IMG/VR virus record: IMGVR_UViG_3300006852_000002
Location: 1-57,950 of that record
Length of the DNA stretch: 57,950 bases
Direction: 5' to 3' (one strand)
Origin: a virus
In this document: in pieces, positions 5,500 through 57,950 of the stretch
How the letters are laid out: each line of letters opens with the position of its first letter
How positions within the stretch are numbered: position 1 is the stretch's first letter
Notes under the pieces: model-generated
What the model saw: the letters and a program-made list of their open reading frames with translations, nothing else
What the model was told of the DNA's origin: nothing
Databases searched by the model: none
Position numbers and translations under genes: made by a program

Positions 5500-6078
5500 T
5501 TAAGCTAAATACGCTATCTTGGGTTTGGGGTCGTTACGAATTATTTTCCAGTATACTTCTTCGGTCATTCTCACATCGGCGGCACAATGCTCAACCAGTT
5601 GACGCATAGCTTCAATGCCCGCTGGAAAGTTCGCTTCCCAGATAATGTCCCAGTGAACTCGGGGATATATTTTAGTTTTTTCTTGGGGGATACCAAAAAA
5701 ATCAGCGAGGTGATCCAGAGCAACAGTGGGTTTACCGATTACATTTAGAGTGGTGCGAAATCCACACCGCTTAGCGCCTAACATCGTATCGTATACTAAG
5801 GGCGGTTTAGGGCGTTTCATGTTCAGAAGCATGGCCCTAGATTTTAAATACGGCCAATCAAATCGCTCTCCATTGTGCATTACAATCAAATCATATTTCT
5901 CAACTTCGTCAAATATTGATTGAAGTAACTTATCTTCGTGCCCTGGGCGACTCTCCATCGGATTCCAAACTAGCATTTTAACCGCTCCGCCCATGGGTTT
6001 AATTCCTGCCATTAGTACCACTCCATCCCCTACCGCTCTAAGACTCGTCGTCTCAATATCGAGCGTAGCTATTTGCAT
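5500..6078 (-). CDS. DnaQ-like DEDD 3'-5' exonuclease
   Basis: 192 residues of the RNase H-fold exonuclease superfamily. Exo I is MQIATLDIETTSL (Asp and Glu at residues 7 and 9). Exo II is LIVMHNGERFDWPYL near residue 70. Exo III is the C-terminal HCAADVRMTEEVYW with its Asp. It degrades single-stranded DNA or RNA from 3' ends. It is the last gene of the leftward unit, away from the polymerase, which has its own exonuclease domain. A role in clearing host nucleic acid or processing ends is therefore possible. Confidence 0.82.
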   Translation of the reverse strand: MQIATLDIETTSLRAVGDGVVLMAGIKPMGGAVKMLVWNPMESRPGHEDKLLQSIFDEVEKYDLIVMHNGERFDWPYLKSRAMLLNMKRPKPPLVYDTMLGAKRCGFRTTLNVIGKPTVALDHLADFFGIPQEKTKIYPRVHWDIIWEANFPAGIEAMRQLVEHCAADVRMTEEVYWKIIRNDPKPKIAYLA

Positions 6079-19984: not shown

Positions 19985-20286
19985 AATTTATGTACCAGAA
20001 TAGCAGCTCCAGATAAAGCCGGGCCGTAGATAAGAACTTCCCAACTAAATCCGAAATGAATAAACGCTACCAGTAATCCGATCCAGAAAGATACACAGTA
20101 TAAGCATCGAATACCATCACCAATCCAATCATCTTCAAGAAACAGATTACTGAACCTAAGAAAAATATCAAAAGGCCCGCGTTCAGCCGTAATCATGTTT
20201 GAAATTCTAAATACGAAAAAAGCTTCAATTAGAAACTTTACTAGACTTTCCACGGCCTTGACCTTTCTTGGGTGCTGGGCTTTCAA
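19981..20286 (-). CDS. DUF1360-like membrane protein
   Basis: 101 residues. DWIGDGIRCLYCVSFWIGLLVAFIHFGF with its C-x-x-C before a membrane helix, then a second hydrophobic segment (YGPALSGAAILVHKL), matches the small DUF1360 family often found in phage neck clusters. The start overlaps the upstream frame by 62 nt; a second ATG (MITAERGPF) would reduce the overlap. Confidence 0.7.
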   Translation of the reverse strand: MKAQHPRKVKAVESLVKFLIEAFFVFRISNMITAERGPFDIFLRFSNLFLEDDWIGDGIRCLYCVSFWIGLLVAFIHFGFSWEVLIYGPALSGAAILVHKL

Positions 20287-20608
20287 CTACAACAGGGGCC
20301 GCAGCAGGAACTGGCTCGGTGACTTCTTCGACCTTTGCCGGTACAGGCGATTGTCGTTTTACTTCAGCCCACACGCCAAAGCTCTTAAGCCATTCCACGT
20401 CAATCGGATCGACATTTGCAAACTTGTCGTATGGGTTGTTGCCTCCACGATATACATGGCCGGAAGGTGAACGGCCCGGCCCGCCCCAAGGAATGCCGCC
20501 CCTTTGTGGGCCAGTGAACTGCATTCGCACTAACCCAGGATTATTTTCAGTAGCAGGGGTGGGAGCCTGCCGTAAAGCCATTTGACCACCACAACTTCCA
20601 CAAGCCAT
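20225..20608 (-). CDS. Possible separately translated neck/decoration protein from an internal start
   Basis: Within the large glycosyltransferase frame an ATG at 20608 is preceded by GGGAGG with nine bases of spacing. It would give a 127-residue protein: CGSCGG motif, a LVRMQFTGPQ-type strand, a segment SGHVYRGGNNPYDKFANVDPIDVEWLKSFG, then an Ala/Pro/Lys-rich tail. Small phage proteins near the head-tail joint have this YRGG...DVxWL layout. It may be made both as the fusion and alone. Alternatively a lost stop codon created the fusion. Confidence 0.6.
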   Translation of the reverse strand: MACGSCGGQMALRQAPTPATENNPGLVRMQFTGPQRGGIPWGGPGRSPSGHVYRGGNNPYDKFANVDPIDVEWLKSFGVWAEVKRQSPVPAKVEEVTEPVPAAAPVVVESPAPKKGQGRGKSSKVSN

Positions 20609-22897
20609 TTTATCAATCCTCCCGATACTATTTTCGTATTTTTCGTGAATTTTTGCAATAGTCAGCTTTCTCGGCTTATTTGACCGAGTTCTGGCTGATA
20701 ATCTGACGAATAATAGGGACTTTGGATACCGAAGGCCAAAACAATTGTTCAAGGCACATCGAATATAAAAATCCCAATCTTCCATAAGCTCTAAATCTTC
20801 GTCGAACAATACTTTCCTAGCTATTTTAGTCGGCACTAAGCAAGTCACTGGATGGGGGATTTCATTAGCTAATATATCTAAATCATAATTTGGAGTTTCA
20901 GTTATTTTGTTGCCCTCAATCGTACTCCAGTCAGAGTAGATATAATTCTCTGGATTGGCTTTGGCGGCGATTAGCATTGACTCGATAGTTTCTGGATGAA
21001 TATAGTCGTCAGCATCCAGGAATAACACATAGTCAGATTTAGCTTTATTAATTCCCAAGTTACGAGCCGCACCTGATCCAGATTCATTGGAGTTAATAAT
21101 TTCAATAAATGGATATTTATCCAAAAGCTCTCCAGTCCATTTACTGTCTTTAGCGTCATTAACAACAATCAGTTCCCAATTTCTAAATGATTGACCGACT
21201 ACGCTTTCAATAGCCGTCTCAACAAACTTTGTATGTCTAGCGGCGACCGGAATAATCACGCTGACTTCTGGAAAGTCGTGCGATAAGACGACGGGCATTG
21301 ACTCACATGGAGCAGCGATAGGATAAACTCCATCTCGAATGAACGGTAGCCAAGTATCGATACGATGATATGGCTTCGTTCGACTAGCTCCGTTAGGATG
21401 TAGACGATACACGAACAACGGATCATTCACAACTCGTTTAGCAGTAAATCCTAAACTCAGTCCACGAACCCAGAACTCTACATCTTCGGCTGGATGAAAT
21501 TGCTGACGGTATCCACCGGCCCGTTTCCACATTTTCTTACGAAACATTGCCGCACATGGAATACAATTTGCCGGTGGATTGGATAGCTTAGTCATCACTG
21601 ACCAGTTAAATTCCGGCGGCCAGGTTGTTCGTCCAGTTTCTTCGTCTTTAAGTAAAAGCAATCCAGTATAAGCTACTCCAAGGTCTGGATTATCTTTCAT
21701 TTCACTCAAAAGAATCTCAGCGTACTTCTCATGAATTTGATCGTCGGCATCCAAACAGATAATAAAGTCGCCTTTAGCGGCAACAATTCCGTTATTACGG
21801 GCACCGGCAACACCGGAATTTTCTTGATAAATAATTTTTACTTTAGGATTACTCTTGTGCTTATTGATGACTTTTTTACTGTTATCTGTTGAACCATCAT
21901 CCACAATAATCACTTCGTCTACAACAGATTGATCGAGGGCGCTTTGAATGGCATCCTCGATATATTTTTCGTAGTTATAGTTAGTAATAACGATACTAAC
22001 TCCACTCTCGTCTGGGATTGTGCTGACTTTATTATACAGATTAGCATACTTCTGCATAACAATCGGCCAATCGTATCGCTCAGCCTTCGCTCGGGCGGCT
22101 TTACTGGTTTCTTCCCAATGTTCAATTAGCCATTCATATCCTTCGAGTAGTTCGTCGTAATCGTAAGGCTCCACTAAATAACCGTCAACCTTATGAGTAA
22201 CAATATCTAACGTACCACCCCAAGCAAATCCAAGAACGGGTACTTCGGAAGCCATTGCTTCAAGAGTACCTACGCCAAAAGTTTCTTGAGTTAAGGCCAG
22301 GTAAATTTCTGCATTACGAATCAACTCTTTCATTTCATCATGCGGCATCTTCCCAGTAACGATGAAATTATCCAGAGCCGGACGATCTTCTGGAGCAAAA
22401 GTTGAGATAACTCTTACACCTCGTTGAGCTAATTCCCAAGCGTGAACTGGATTGCATACATCTTCTCTACGATTCTTATTCCACAGAGCGTAGTTTTTAG
22501 TTTCTCCGGGCGACCATTCAGATACATCAATCCCGTGCCCAATAATTTCGGGAACGATTCGCATATCATATTGAAAAGGTCGTTGAACCCAACGCGACGG
22601 CACCGTAATCGACTTAGCTCGACGAGCAGCGCTCATAATTCGTTGATTAGCTGTATTGTGCCAAGCTGAATACTTACCAGAATTTGGATCTCCCGTCCAG
22701 TAAATTCCATGACAGTGAAGCACATCCACTCGGGGAAGCTGAGCCTGTTGTGTATGAGCTGCGATTACATCAGCCGATGCTGGGCCGGTTAGTTCAATTC
22801 CCATTTTAGGGAGATGATTGTATTGAGCCAGAATAATACGACCGATTCCATTATCGCTGCCGATTTCCTGCGGAGTCGGCCAGATGTGTACTTTCAT
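20225..22897 (-). CDS. Three-domain glycosyltransferase (GT4-GT2-GT2) fused to a neck-type tail
   Basis: 890 residues. Residues 1-290 are a GT4/GT-B enzyme with the ETFGVGTLEAMASEVPVLGF acid-x7-acid block. Residues about 300-540 are a GT2 domain (SIVITNYNYEKY, IIVDDGSTD, ICLDADDQ). Residues about 545-750 are a second GT2 domain (SVIIPVAARH, LFLDADDYIHPETIES). The last 127 residues (MACGSCGGQMALRQ, then a Gly/Pro segment and an Ala/Pro/Lys-rich tail) are unlike a glycosyltransferase and look like a small neck protein. They have their own start and ribosome site. The gene lies among virion genes, so virion glycosylation is the likely task. Sugar and acceptor are unknown. Confidence 0.82.
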   Translation of the reverse strand: MKVHIWPTPQEIGSDNGIGRIILAQYNHLPKMGIELTGPASADVIAAHTQQAQLPRVDVLHCHGIYWTGDPNSGKYSAWHNTANQRIMSAARRAKSITVPSRWVQRPFQYDMRIVPEIIGHGIDVSEWSPGETKNYALWNKNRREDVCNPVHAWELAQRGVRVISTFAPEDRPALDNFIVTGKMPHDEMKELIRNAEIYLALTQETFGVGTLEAMASEVPVLGFAWGGTLDIVTHKVDGYLVEPYDYDELLEGYEWLIEHWEETSKAARAKAERYDWPIVMQKYANLYNKVSTIPDESGVSIVITNYNYEKYIEDAIQSALDQSVVDEVIIVDDGSTDNSKKVINKHKSNPKVKIIYQENSGVAGARNNGIVAAKGDFIICLDADDQIHEKYAEILLSEMKDNPDLGVAYTGLLLLKDEETGRTTWPPEFNWSVMTKLSNPPANCIPCAAMFRKKMWKRAGGYRQQFHPAEDVEFWVRGLSLGFTAKRVVNDPLFVYRLHPNGASRTKPYHRIDTWLPFIRDGVYPIAAPCESMPVVLSHDFPEVSVIIPVAARHTKFVETAIESVVGQSFRNWELIVVNDAKDSKWTGELLDKYPFIEIINSNESGSGAARNLGINKAKSDYVLFLDADDYIHPETIESMLIAAKANPENYIYSDWSTIEGNKITETPNYDLDILANEIPHPVTCLVPTKIARKVLFDEDLELMEDWDFYIRCALNNCFGLRYPKSLLFVRLSARTRSNKPRKLTIAKIHEKYENSIGRIDKMACGSCGGQMALRQAPTPATENNPGLVRMQFTGPQRGGIPWGGPGRSPSGHVYRGGNNPYDKFANVDPIDVEWLKSFGVWAEVKRQSPVPAKVEEVTEPVPAAAPVVVESPAPKKGQGRGKSSKVSN

Positions 22898-38489: not shown

Positions 38490-38518
38490 TTGACAGTTTA
38501 CAGCCGCATGGTTATGAT
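38490..38518 (+). promoter_or_regulatory. Near-consensus sigma70 promoter of a small RNA
   Basis: TTGACA (38490-38495), 17-base spacer, TATGAT (38513-38518). Start predicted at about 38525. This is the best promoter in the window. Confidence 0.8.
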
Positions 38519-38526
38519 GTACATCA
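38515..38526. promoter_or_regulatory. Operator-like palindrome over the -10 box and start site
   Basis: TGATGTACATCA is a perfect 12-bp palindrome overlapping the -10 element and predicted start, the classic place for a repressor. A matching TGTACATCA lies upstream at 38449. Confidence 0.6.
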
Positions 38527-38612
38527 GGTTCTTCGAGCAACCTAGAATTTATTATTATTAATATACAGTTTCGTAAGAATCAAAAAACGACTCACTTTTT
38601 GGAGTCGTTTTT
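38525..38612 (+). ncRNA. Candidate small RNA with own promoter and terminator
   Basis: The transcript would be about 90 nt: a 5' hairpin AGGTT-CTTCGAGC-AACCT (38526-38543), an AU-rich single-stranded stretch, and the terminator hairpin. No start codon with a ribosome site is present. The layout matches bacterial and phage regulatory RNAs. Targets unknown. Confidence 0.65.
38583..38612. terminator. Bidirectional terminator
   Basis: AAAAACGACTC (38583-38593) pairs with GAGTCGTTTTT (38602-38612), loop of eight. It ends the small RNA on the plus strand and the HNH gene on the minus strand. Confidence 0.92.
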
Positions 38613-38634
38613 ATTTTGAATCTCTTTACATGAA

Positions 38635-38868
38635 TTACGATCCGCCCTTCTGTAGAGAGAGTAAAGTTAATTCCCATTTCTTTAGATTTCTGTCGTGAAC
38701 AAGCGTATGATGAAGTAAACATAATGCGACTTCGTTATCTTCTGTCAACGCTTTCTTTCCCTTAGACCTAAATATAATATGATGCTTACCTCTCATCGCT
38801 ATTCGTCCACAGACGATACAGCGGTCTGAAGGGAAATATTTTTTACGGGGTCGATTCTTTTTATTCAT
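38635..38868 (-). CDS. HNH endonuclease
   Basis: 77 residues from the ATG at 38868 (MNKKNRPRKK); an ATG 13 codons upstream overlaps a TATAAT-like box and may instead be promoter. CIVCGRIAMRGKHHIIFRSKGKKALTEDNEVALCLLHHTLVHD shows the zinc Cys pair, the HH of the first motif, the central Asn and the final His of an HNH nuclease. It is alone on the minus strand among noncoding elements, typical of a free-standing homing-type gene. It is short but complete in the motif. Confidence 0.85.
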   Translation of the reverse strand: MNKKNRPRKKYFPSDRCIVCGRIAMRGKHHIIFRSKGKKALTEDNEVALCLLHHTLVHDRNLKKWELTLLSLQKGGS

Positions 38869-39011
38869 AGTTTGTCTTACCAGCGATACGCTTGTCTGAG
38901 CAATCATTATAACTCAGTTTGTAATGCTAGACTTCGGCTGGTATACTTCTGTCTGTACCTTAACAATTTAACCTGACTAGTGTGCAAGGCAGGCAAACAA
39001 GTCAGAAAATA

Positions 39012-39017
39012 TATAAT
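39012..39017 (+). promoter_or_regulatory. TATAAT box of the large RNA
   Basis: Perfect TATAAT in AAAATATATAATG. The predicted start at about 39024 coincides with the first base of a hairpin. No convincing -35 box at normal spacing, so an activator or phage factor may be needed. Confidence 0.55.
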
Positions 39018-39023
39018 GAGAAA

Positions 39024-39724
39024 TGGACGGTCTGAGCTTCACCGCCATAAGTTCTACGCTCTGCATTCGTCAGGGGGCGTCAGCGAAATTCTCCTACCGA
39101 AGGGTACTGCGACTGGCAGCAAGAGAATGTAGCGAACAATAGCGCAAGTGATCGACGGCTGGCAATAGGTTACAGCGTCGGACGAATGGTAACGAGATAA
39201 AATGGCGGCATCACTCAGATTGTAGCGACCAACACTAAGCTACATCACGGAATCATTATATGTAATCTGATAGGTAGAAGCCGTAAAAAGTTCGCGAGAA
39301 CCATGGACAATGAACTCGTGAAGAATAACCTATAGGCGAGTCGCAGAGAAGATGACACAGAGACGATAAAGCTGCAATTGCTGATTGAACGTAATTCTGA
39401 CAAAATTACGCACAGTTAAAGACCCCATGCGATTTTCAAAAGATTCTGGCATTGCGACCAGACCCACAAACCGTAAGATGTTACGGTGCGTTAGATAATC
39501 GCGGTAGCTCAGACGCGAAACTTACCCCTTAAGGTAACGTCTACGCGGAGTCTACCAAGGCGGCGAGCGCGAAGGACACATAGGTATCTGCGATGGTTAC
39601 GGAATTAATTCCTTACGAGAGAGTTCCTTATATCCGTAACTCAGCTAAAGGAAACCTTTTCAGAACTTATTAGAGCGGGAGGTAGGCGAGAAAATAAAGA
39701 ATCGCTTATCTTCCGCTATTTTTG
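39024..39724 (+). ncRNA. Large highly structured RNA candidate (about 700 nt)
   Basis: No credible coding frame over about 1 kb, yet many local helices. These include TGG(a)CGGT/ACCGCCA 39024-39047; CGAC(G)GCTG/CAGCGTCG 39153-39180; CAGATT/AATCTG 39216-39269 around TGTAGC/GCTACA; GTTC-GCGA-GAAC 39290-39301 with a GNRA loop; CGTAATT/AATTACG 39390-39410; TCTGG/CCAGA 39445-39462; CCGTAA-GATG-TTACGG 39471-39486; TTACC/GGTAA 39522-39537 inside AGACG/CGTCT; GTTACGGA/TCCGTAAC 39596-39640; AAAGG-AAA-CCTTT 39647-39659; and the terminator at 39675. TATAAT lies just upstream. GOLLD and ROOL RNAs are phage RNAs of this size, often near tRNAs; membership is untested. Confidence 0.7.
39675..39723 (+). terminator. 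Intrinsic terminator of the large RNA
   Basis: GCGGGAGGTAGGCGA (39675-39689) pairs with TCGCTTATCTTCCGC (39702-39716): 15 bp with three G-U pairs, 12-nt loop, then TATTTTTG. The G-U pairs would be mismatches on the other strand, so the functional transcript is rightward. Confidence 0.85.
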
Positions 39725-39729
39725 TTTAC

Positions 39730-39785
39730 GGGGCATGAGTACCTGGCGGCTTCCGGTGAGGCGGGTTCGATTCCCGTATGCTCCA
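39730..39785 (+). tRNA. tRNA-like element lacking a D-arm
   Basis: GGGGCAT (39730-39736) pairs with ATGCTCC (39778-39784) as a 7-bp acceptor stem with one G-U and discriminator A. GCGGG-TTCGATT-CCCGT (39761-39777) is a canonical T-arm. Only 24 nt lie between: linker GAGT, ACCTG-GCGGCTT-CCGGT (a 5-bp stem with one T-C mismatch, 7-nt loop) and GAG. That is the plan of a D-armless tRNA; read so, the anticodon would be GGC (Ala), but loop position 33 is C, not U. CCA is not encoded (CTT follows). It may be a tRNA mimic or a decayed tRNA. Confidence 0.6.
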
Positions 39786-40079
39786 CTTGTTGACGATAAA
39801 GGAGAGCTTCTCGTTATGCTGGCATCAGGGTAAACAATAGCCAATTTCCCGCGCGGTGAGTTGCCCGAAAAACGTATAGATATAGAATTCGTGTTTCAAT
39901 AGGACGAATAGATTATCGCTACAATACGAAGTAAGTTGACCTAGATAATAGCGAGAAGTTCTTCTGTGTCGTCAACGGCACGAAGGAGGCGGCCTATGTG
40001 GAGCGTAGGGGGATAAAAGCTCCGATACTCTATCCTTACTGTTATAACACTTATGAATTACGCTAAAGGAGATACGACA
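39786..40079. other. Structured noncoding segment after the tRNA-like element
   Basis: No gene. GTTGACGA (39789-39796) can pair with TCGTCAAC (39969-39976), closing a 190-nt domain. Inside are ATTCGT/ACGAAT near 39887-39909 and TCGCTA/TAGCGA near 39916-39953. GGAGC/GCTCC near 39999-40023 lies downstream. It may be the 5' leader of the gene at 40080, or a further RNA domain. Confidence 0.5.
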
Positions 40080-40376
40080 ATGTTAAACGTACAGTCTCAC
40101 AACATTCAAAGCGACTTAGCGGTTCTGGATTTAGACGAACTCATTCAAGTCGTGAACATTGCGGTTGAGTGTTCCCGCATTAAGATGGAGAGCCAGCGTT
40201 ATCCGGCAGGTTGCGACAATCCATCTAGTATACCAGCGGATATAGGATTTTACGCAAAGCAAGCGTTTGACGCCGAGGATCAGTATCTTCGGGCAATCAA
40301 AACTCAACAAGCGCTTTTTGCGGCCAAAGGGTGCAGCGGCGTTATTGTGATTGACGAGGGAAAGAAGGAGAGATGA
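40080..40376 (+). CDS. Hypothetical protein
   Basis: 98 residues. The ATG at 40080 follows TAAAGGAGATACGACA; an in-frame ATG at 40053 places that ribosome site inside the gene and is unlikely. Helical (LDELIQVVNIAVECSRIKMES, YAKQAFDAEDQYLRAIKTQQAL). First gene of the main rightward small-gene run. No family recognised. Confidence 0.75.
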   Translation: MLNVQSHNIQSDLAVLDLDELIQVVNIAVECSRIKMESQRYPAGCDNPSSIPADIGFYAKQAFDAEDQYLRAIKTQQALFAAKGCSGVIVIDEGKKER

Positions 40377-57721: not shown

Positions 57722-57950
57722 AAACTTGGTTTGAGCTAGTATCAACGCAATGGGTTTCGCCAGTAACTAACTACGGCGAACACGGCGGCTACCTGTCCAC
57801 GATAAACTACGAATTTAAATTTATCGGCCCACTATGGGTTGCATGGATCATAGTGAAGTTTAACGATGTAGTTTTTCCGTACCATGTGGGTAAATTCATG
57901 GCATGGGTATTTGCAAGGTTTGGAGCTTATGTGCTCTACAAAGAAGTTCC
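57718..57950 (+). CDS. Hypothetical protein, 5' part of a gene crossing the window junction
   Basis: The ATG overlaps the TGA of the upstream gene (ATGA). The frame runs to the window end and continues at position 1, giving 106 residues in total. The middle is rich in aromatic and aliphatic residues (FIGPLWVAWIIVKF), with one possible membrane or buried segment around residues 35-55. No family recognised. It is the last gene before the recombination module and is translationally coupled to the gene before it. Confidence 0.8.
   Translation, partial: MKTWFELVSTQWVSPVTNYGEHGGYLSTINYEFKFIGPLWVAWIIVKFNDVVFPYHVGKFMAWVFARFGAYVLYKEV
57901..57950. repeat. Terminal direct repeat (copy 2)
   Basis: Second copy of the 50 bp at positions 1-50. 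Removing one copy gives a 57,900-bp circle. Confidence 0.95.

Follow-up and report, generated by a model that had tools for sequence, protein, structure and literature searches.

A gene desert with structured ends and a tRNA-like module in the genome of a tailed phage

The window, which is the whole stretch of DNA analysed (57,950 nt), comprises the entire virus record IMGVR_UViG_3300006852_000002. Its first 50 nt are identical to its last (positions 1-50 and 57901-57950, a terminal direct repeat), which indicates a complete contig of circular assembly. Its genes include those for a tape measure protein, a terminase with a TerL nuclease, a Pol I-type DNA polymerase, a DnaB-like helicase, a UvsX-like recombinase and an endolysin, and by its sequence the virus is a tailed phage of bacteria. 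We also note an 890-aa protein (20225-22897, minus strand) with glycosyltransferase family 2 and group 1 domains amid the structural genes. Genes are directed leftward from ~5.4 to 37 kb, and rightward from 37.3 kb on and in the 0-5.2 kb segment; no integrase was found among the window proteins scanned. The polymerase and TerL are ~25-30% identical to those of GenBank phages. In IMG/VR alignments the TerL relatives show 22-39% identity (mostly about 25%) and the DNA polymerase relatives 24-33%. The best TerL match (contig L014, 39%) covers the nuclease domain only, and that contig stops before the region corresponding to the locus described here. Single-protein scans of IMG/VR with three window proteins yielded no close relative, in collections from which very near records may be missing.

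When ORFs of at least 60 codons are counted, the widest gap in this genome is a desert of 1,145 bp (38908-40052); the runner-up measures 605 bp. An HNH endonuclease gene of 90 aa (38635-38907, minus strand) lies directly upstream. The first gene downstream (40080-40376, plus strand) is preceded by AAAGGAG at 40065-40071 and has no family match; the rightward unit that starts at 40080 presumably consists of early genes. Within the desert no stop-free run is longer than 74 codons (plus strand) or 63 codons (minus strand), and no protein match was obtained for it, in agreement with the initial annotation, which had found no coding potential. Long minus-strand frames over 39716-39895 were rejected as a gene, because their peptides, such as GIEPAS and RESNPP, are what antisense tRNA sequence yields on translation. 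The phage, which has genes for tail, terminase and polymerase, thus possesses the large gene-free locus that goes with GOLLD/ROOL-like RNAs. A further feature, at 38490-38618 (plus strand), combines TTGACA-17-TATGAT (11/12) with a bidirectional terminator (38583-38612) ~65 nt further on, and likely represents either a ~90-nt small RNA or a paired promoter and terminator.

The 5' side of the desert holds a structured domain (39002-39270, plus strand) closed by an 18-nt stem with 16 pairs (39002-39019/39253-39270), within which the fold nests the stems 39030-39036/39214-39220, 39042-39048/39202-39208 and 39064-39071/39181-39188; ensemble probabilities of the domain's stems are 0.98-0.99. The stretch 38995-39275 folds with a z-score of -4.6 (100 shuffles), against a mean of -0.4 and a minimum of -2.6 for 74 background windows of the same length, the domain limits for the best z-scores having been chosen partly after inspection. 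The minus strand of the domain reaches a nearly as low -3.9, and in a coarser genome-wide scan (7 shuffles, 576 windows) the domain ranks 4th of 576, which is notable and not unique. The RNA had initially been placed from 39024 on, downstream of a TATAAT promoter box. The box does exist at 39012-39017 on the plus strand; however, it forms part of the closing stem, on its 5' side, and the promoter scan gave it no -35 box, and the structure begins near 39000, so that the boundary at 39024 is not upheld. The candidate for the true transcript start is near 38954, downstream of the promoter-like TTGTAA-17-TATACT with an extended TG (38919-38947, plus strand; consensus match 9/12 plus TG). Promoter-like sites in the desert region amount to 13, with 7.5±3.2 expected, which is not significantly above chance, and the site at 38919-38947 is therefore weak.

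The middle part (39276-39660, plus strand, ~385 nt) folds no better than background, with a z-score of -1.4 on both strands for 39272-39660. More than ten local helices had been counted in 39024-39724; under strict criteria there are 8 hairpins, and 400 dinucleotide shuffles have 6.7±1.9, with 33% of them reaching 8; the minus strand of the same stretch has 10 hairpins, and this argument falls away. A GNRA hairpin, also listed, can form with a GCGA tetraloop but is outcompeted by a 7-bp helix (39292-39298/39315-39321) that is dominant in the ensemble. For the body 39024-39660 (637 nt, terminator hairpin excluded), plus-strand z-scores of -2.1 to -2.2 lie within the background of other 637-nt genome windows (-1.2±1.4); the minus strand gives -3.6. 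Consequently, the z-score of -3.8 to -4.1 of the 701-nt stretch rests largely on the terminator hairpin.

This hairpin (39674-39724, plus strand), an intrinsic terminator or a processing hairpin, pairs 39674-39689 with 39702-39717 over 16 bp around a 12-nt loop and has an ATTTTTG tail. The pairs comprise 13 Watson-Crick, 3 G-U and 0 A-C, and ATTTTTGTTT comes next; the 3 G-U would be A-C on the opposite strand, which confirms the earlier description of an intrinsic terminator whose G-U pairs work on the plus strand only. A G+C-containing hairpin followed by a T run, as is expected of an intrinsic terminator, is thus found at 39674-39724. The terminator scan did not list it because its loop of 12 nt exceeds the permitted length. 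Since the terminator precedes the tRNA-like element described below, the two need not belong to one RNA.

The tRNA-like element (39730-39788, plus strand) begins six nucleotides past 39724, the 3' end proposed initially. It is matched by the Rfam tmRNA model RF00023 at 20.9 bits (E 5.8e-6 and 3.2e-6), the only family matched over the desert in a search with 4227 families at E≤10. The sequence at 39730-39785 reads GGGGCAT-GAGT-ACCTGGCGGCTTCCGGT-GAG-GCGGG-TTCGATT-CCCGT-ATGCTCC-A. All 7/7 acceptor pairs form between GGGGCAT and ATGCTCC, with G3·U70 followed by A73, and the T arm GCGGG-TTCGATT-CCCGT has a perfect 5/5 stem; the middle hairpin is short and carries GGC where the anticodon would be. 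G3·U70 and A73 are the classical alanine identity elements, and GGC is an alanine anticodon. The likeness to tRNA-Ala lies in these identity elements, the GGC and the perfect T arm; the differences are the lack of a D arm and of an encoded CCA, C instead of U at position 33, and a mismatch in the anticodon stem. The strict acceptor/T-arm pattern occurs 0 times in 200 shuffled genomes. ARAGORN called 0 canonical tRNA genes in the window and passed over the element, and an assignment as tRNA-Ala proper was rejected for want of a D-armed cloverleaf, U33 and a matched anticodon stem. The most fitting description is a tRNA-Ala-like element that lacks the D arm. As to the nearness to tRNAs, which the initial annotation named for the giant phage RNAs, no canonical tRNA is present, and the tRNA or tRNA-like neighbour that goes with GOLLD/ROOL-like RNAs takes the form of the element at 39730-39788. 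Exact patterns derived from it were sought in 2.9 million contigs of viruses and in 85,000 genomes, and none was present; the element therefore does not exactly reproduce any of the tRNA 3' ends in these collections, an argument against an attP core at 39730-39788. Compact tRNA-like genes missed by ARAGORN were also seen in other phages (L237:544-612 and L181:about 1470-1540), the former with the same acceptor, GGGGCAT/ATGCTCC, as the window element.

A 31-bp long-range helix of the plus strand, between 39787-39817 and 39948-39978, contains 24 Watson-Crick pairs, 6 G-U, 0 A-C and 1 other mismatch. It is the strongest stem in the genome, with a score of 28.3 versus 18.6 for the next, and the best stem score in 400 shuffles of the desert reaches a maximum of 19.3; the z-score of 39765-40020 is -7.3. 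The 3' half of the tRNA-like element (39770-39786) has an alternative partner at 39998-40014 (plus strand, 16/17 paired), and since 4/300 shuffles do as well, this pairing is moderate evidence. In the energy models, transcripts ending at or before 39978 fold the tRNA-like element and longer ones favour the competing helix, which in silico the full stretch prefers by 13 kcal/mol over the tRNA-like fold. Inspection of the sequence at 39983-40016 (plus strand) further reveals a perfect AAGGAGG and then ATG-TGG-AGC-GTA-GGG-GGA-TAA, a possible six-codon leader ORF with its ATG at 39996, which overlaps the competing strand 39998-40014.

Taken over 38954-40052, the plus strand folds with a z-score of -7.3, compared with -3.0 for the minus strand. 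Structure above chance sits at the two ends of the desert and extends beyond both limits set initially, from near 39000 to about 40014; the 3' limit at 39724 is accordingly too early. The ornate RNA of ~700 nt proposed there thus survives in altered form: the z-scores and the 31-bp helix support a structured noncoding RNA from the plus strand across the whole desert, and the structural evidence originally cited for it fails. In the four main helices the departures from Watson-Crick pairing are 12 G-U and 0 A-C; the inverted repeats I1, I3 and I7, taken from a strand-neutral repeat search, show 9 G-U versus 0 A-C (one-sided 0.5^9, about 0.002). G-U without A-C departures would be expected if a plus-strand RNA is selected, and this speaks against a purely DNA-level role. 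By the same method the ORF-less gap of phage ICP1, a known RNA source, gives z-scores of only -2.9 and -3.3, which makes fold energy alone a blunt test. No DNA homologues of the desert were found in phage, plasmid, IMG/VR and genome collections, and blastn of the desert against 49 distantly related records returned nothing beyond chance matches and short tRNA-type matches in the T arm.

Message-less (CDS-less) tmRNAs have been reported from phage DS6A, plastids and mitochondria, and expression of the DS6A one in E. coli reportedly inhibits the endogenous tmRNA (PMC11915505). A set of such RNAs was collected by a pattern scan of IMG/VR followed by structural filtering. Short tmRNAs without a message occur in many viral contigs, and ten pass the Rfam tmRNA gathering score at 60-70 nt (L277:4080-4146, L209:842-907, L287:6437-6500, L307:9912-9981, L196:7487-7553, L204:8793-8854, L255:157-224, L258:6081-6146, L308:5423-5488 and L242:1876-1942). 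A class model built from them adds further members in L190, L200, L248, L203 and L235; it collects 17 matches, and members score 41-82 bits. Covariation in the class is strong: 10/16 pairs show changes on both sides, 98.9% of cells are paired and no shuffle is as high, in a set in which G1-G4 and CTCC were fixed by the search pattern and which includes L214, an ordinary permuted tmRNA (RF04321; L214:56-235 in a 231-kb viral contig). From their sequences, message-less tmRNAs look widespread in phages. As far as found, they have been reported so far from DS6A and some organelles (PMC11915505), and their recurrence across viral contigs is an extension of that record; with the strong covariation, it makes phage interference with ribosome rescue directly testable. 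We also note that the member in L308 lies in the loop of a group I intron (L308:5277-5565, minus strand), and that Pontimonas phage phiPsal1 (MG835450.1) carries an unannotated 82-nt message-less tmRNA (54.6 bits in RF00023) at 5569-5650, flanked by a hypothetical gene and the gene for the major capsid protein.

The window element shares with the DS6A type an acceptor with G3·U70 and a T arm, and the lack of a D arm, a message and a tag frame. It differs in lacking the tmRNA D-loop motif UUCGA when aligned with the class and in its tRNA-like score: 20.3 bits in the class model, compared with about 21-26 for tRNAs, and 20.9 bits in RF00023, for which the gathering score is 47. The missing motif and the model scores rule it out as a message-less tmRNA.

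In summary, the desert is noncoding, has structure beyond chance at both ends and a preference for the plus strand, and contains a tRNA-like module. Its best explanation, with a probability of about 0.42, may be a processed noncoding early transcript of the plus strand that would work in the manner of GOLLD/ROOL-type RNAs, for which we infer transcription, processing and a role in trans. The RNA would be transcribed at the head of the rightward gene block, and the 5' domain 39002-39270 and the terminator hairpin (to 39724) would bound an RNA of ~0.75 kb. Read-through would yield the D-arm-less alanine-tRNA-like element and a helical domain with 48-nt arms (39770-40014), before the first downstream gene. 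In the most likely mechanism, host RNase P would recognise the acceptor/T-arm module and cut near 39730, RNase III would cut the 31-bp duplex, and the two cuts would separate a stable RNA from the downstream mRNA, which would start before 40080. The tRNA-like module would fold only until the competing strand 39998-40014 is made, and the mature RNA would be an abundant structural RNA like GOLLD, ROOL and the ICP1 RNA. Against this explanation stand the background-level fold of the middle 385 nt, the unconvincing promoter and the lack of a homologue among the collections searched.

The position of the desert directly before the first rightward genes would also suit a long 5' untranslated region or attenuator of the rightward operon, in which read-through or translation from 40080 would be set by the terminator, by the tRNA-like element and the strand competing with it, and by the small Shine-Dalgarno-preceded ORF, with no RNA acting in trans. 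The folds of 39730-39788 and 39770-40014 are mutually exclusive, and AAGGAGG and the six-codon ORF overlap the competing strand, as such a cis-acting leader would have it; however, the alternative pairing is only moderately significant (4/300 shuffles) and a 270-nt 5' domain ~800 nt upstream is unusual for an attenuator, and we regard this possibility as somewhat improbable. A mostly non-functional, decayed region, with a real terminator, a truncated tRNA-Ala remnant and chance helices elsewhere, would account for the background-level middle part and for an element devoid of CCA and D arm, and truncated tRNAs missed by ARAGORN are present in other phage contigs as well. Yet the 31-bp helix has 6 G-U and no A-C, the acceptor (7/7) and T stem (5/5) are intact, and the whole fold is biased toward the plus strand; decay thus appears unlikely. 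It is less probable still that the inverted repeats serve at the DNA level, in duplex or cruciform form, for example in a replication origin. The repeats I1 and I3 are long and the cumulative GC skew has its minimum near 37 kb, but that minimum is explained by the gene orientation, which switches there; the repeat search found no iteron-like repeats, and the G-U without A-C departures point to RNA.

Two readings link the locus to particular known RNAs. That the tRNA-like element serves as a decoy of host tmRNA, as the DS6A precedent (PMC11915505) would allow, agrees with tmRNA being the best Rfam match and with the alanine identity elements G3·U70 and A73; it is nevertheless very unlikely, as the UUCGA motif, invariant in the message-less class, is missing, the class-model score is no better than that of tRNAs and far from that of members, and the RF00023 score stays under gathering. 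Membership of GOLLD or ROOL, which the initial annotation had proposed next to a relative of theirs or a new class, is in keeping with the size, the phage location and the tRNA-like neighbour. Neither covariance model matches the desert, at gathering or at E up to 10, nor was GOLLD's conserved 3' region seen in it, which leaves even a divergent member exceedingly improbable. Returning to the processed plus-strand transcript, a more specific version would make the locus the founder of a new class of ~1-kb phage RNA, in which a built-in D-arm-less alanine-tRNA-like module alternates with the 48-nt-arm helix and couples tRNA-type recognition (RNase P, AlaRS) to release of the large structural RNA and to expression of the first phage genes; this version appears unlikely.

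Large noncoding RNAs are emerging among the most abundant phage transcripts, and few families have been defined. The most abundant transcript of ICP1 is an RNA of ~800 nt from a 1-kb ORF-less gap in a phage without tRNAs (PMC7567579). It differs from the desert in that it sits at the lysis cluster and its expression has been demonstrated (PMC7567579); the likeness consists in an ORF-less gap of ~1 kb in a phage without tRNAs and in the fold of that gap, with similar z-scores (-2.9/-3.3). GOLLD and ROOL are large phage RNAs found near tRNAs or with tRNAs in their linkers (PMC12286853). In contrast to their members, the desert has no covariance-model match; it is alike in kind of locus to GOLLD, a large phage noncoding RNA that is often near tRNAs and sometimes has a tRNA in a linker, and similar in size and phage location to ROOL, which lies near tRNA islands (PMC12286853). 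It would be one more large RNA locus beyond these two families, and its minimal alanine-tRNA-like module, together with the very long duplex on the 3' side, may offer a handle, through RNase P, AlaRS and RNase III, on the making of such RNAs and on their contacts.
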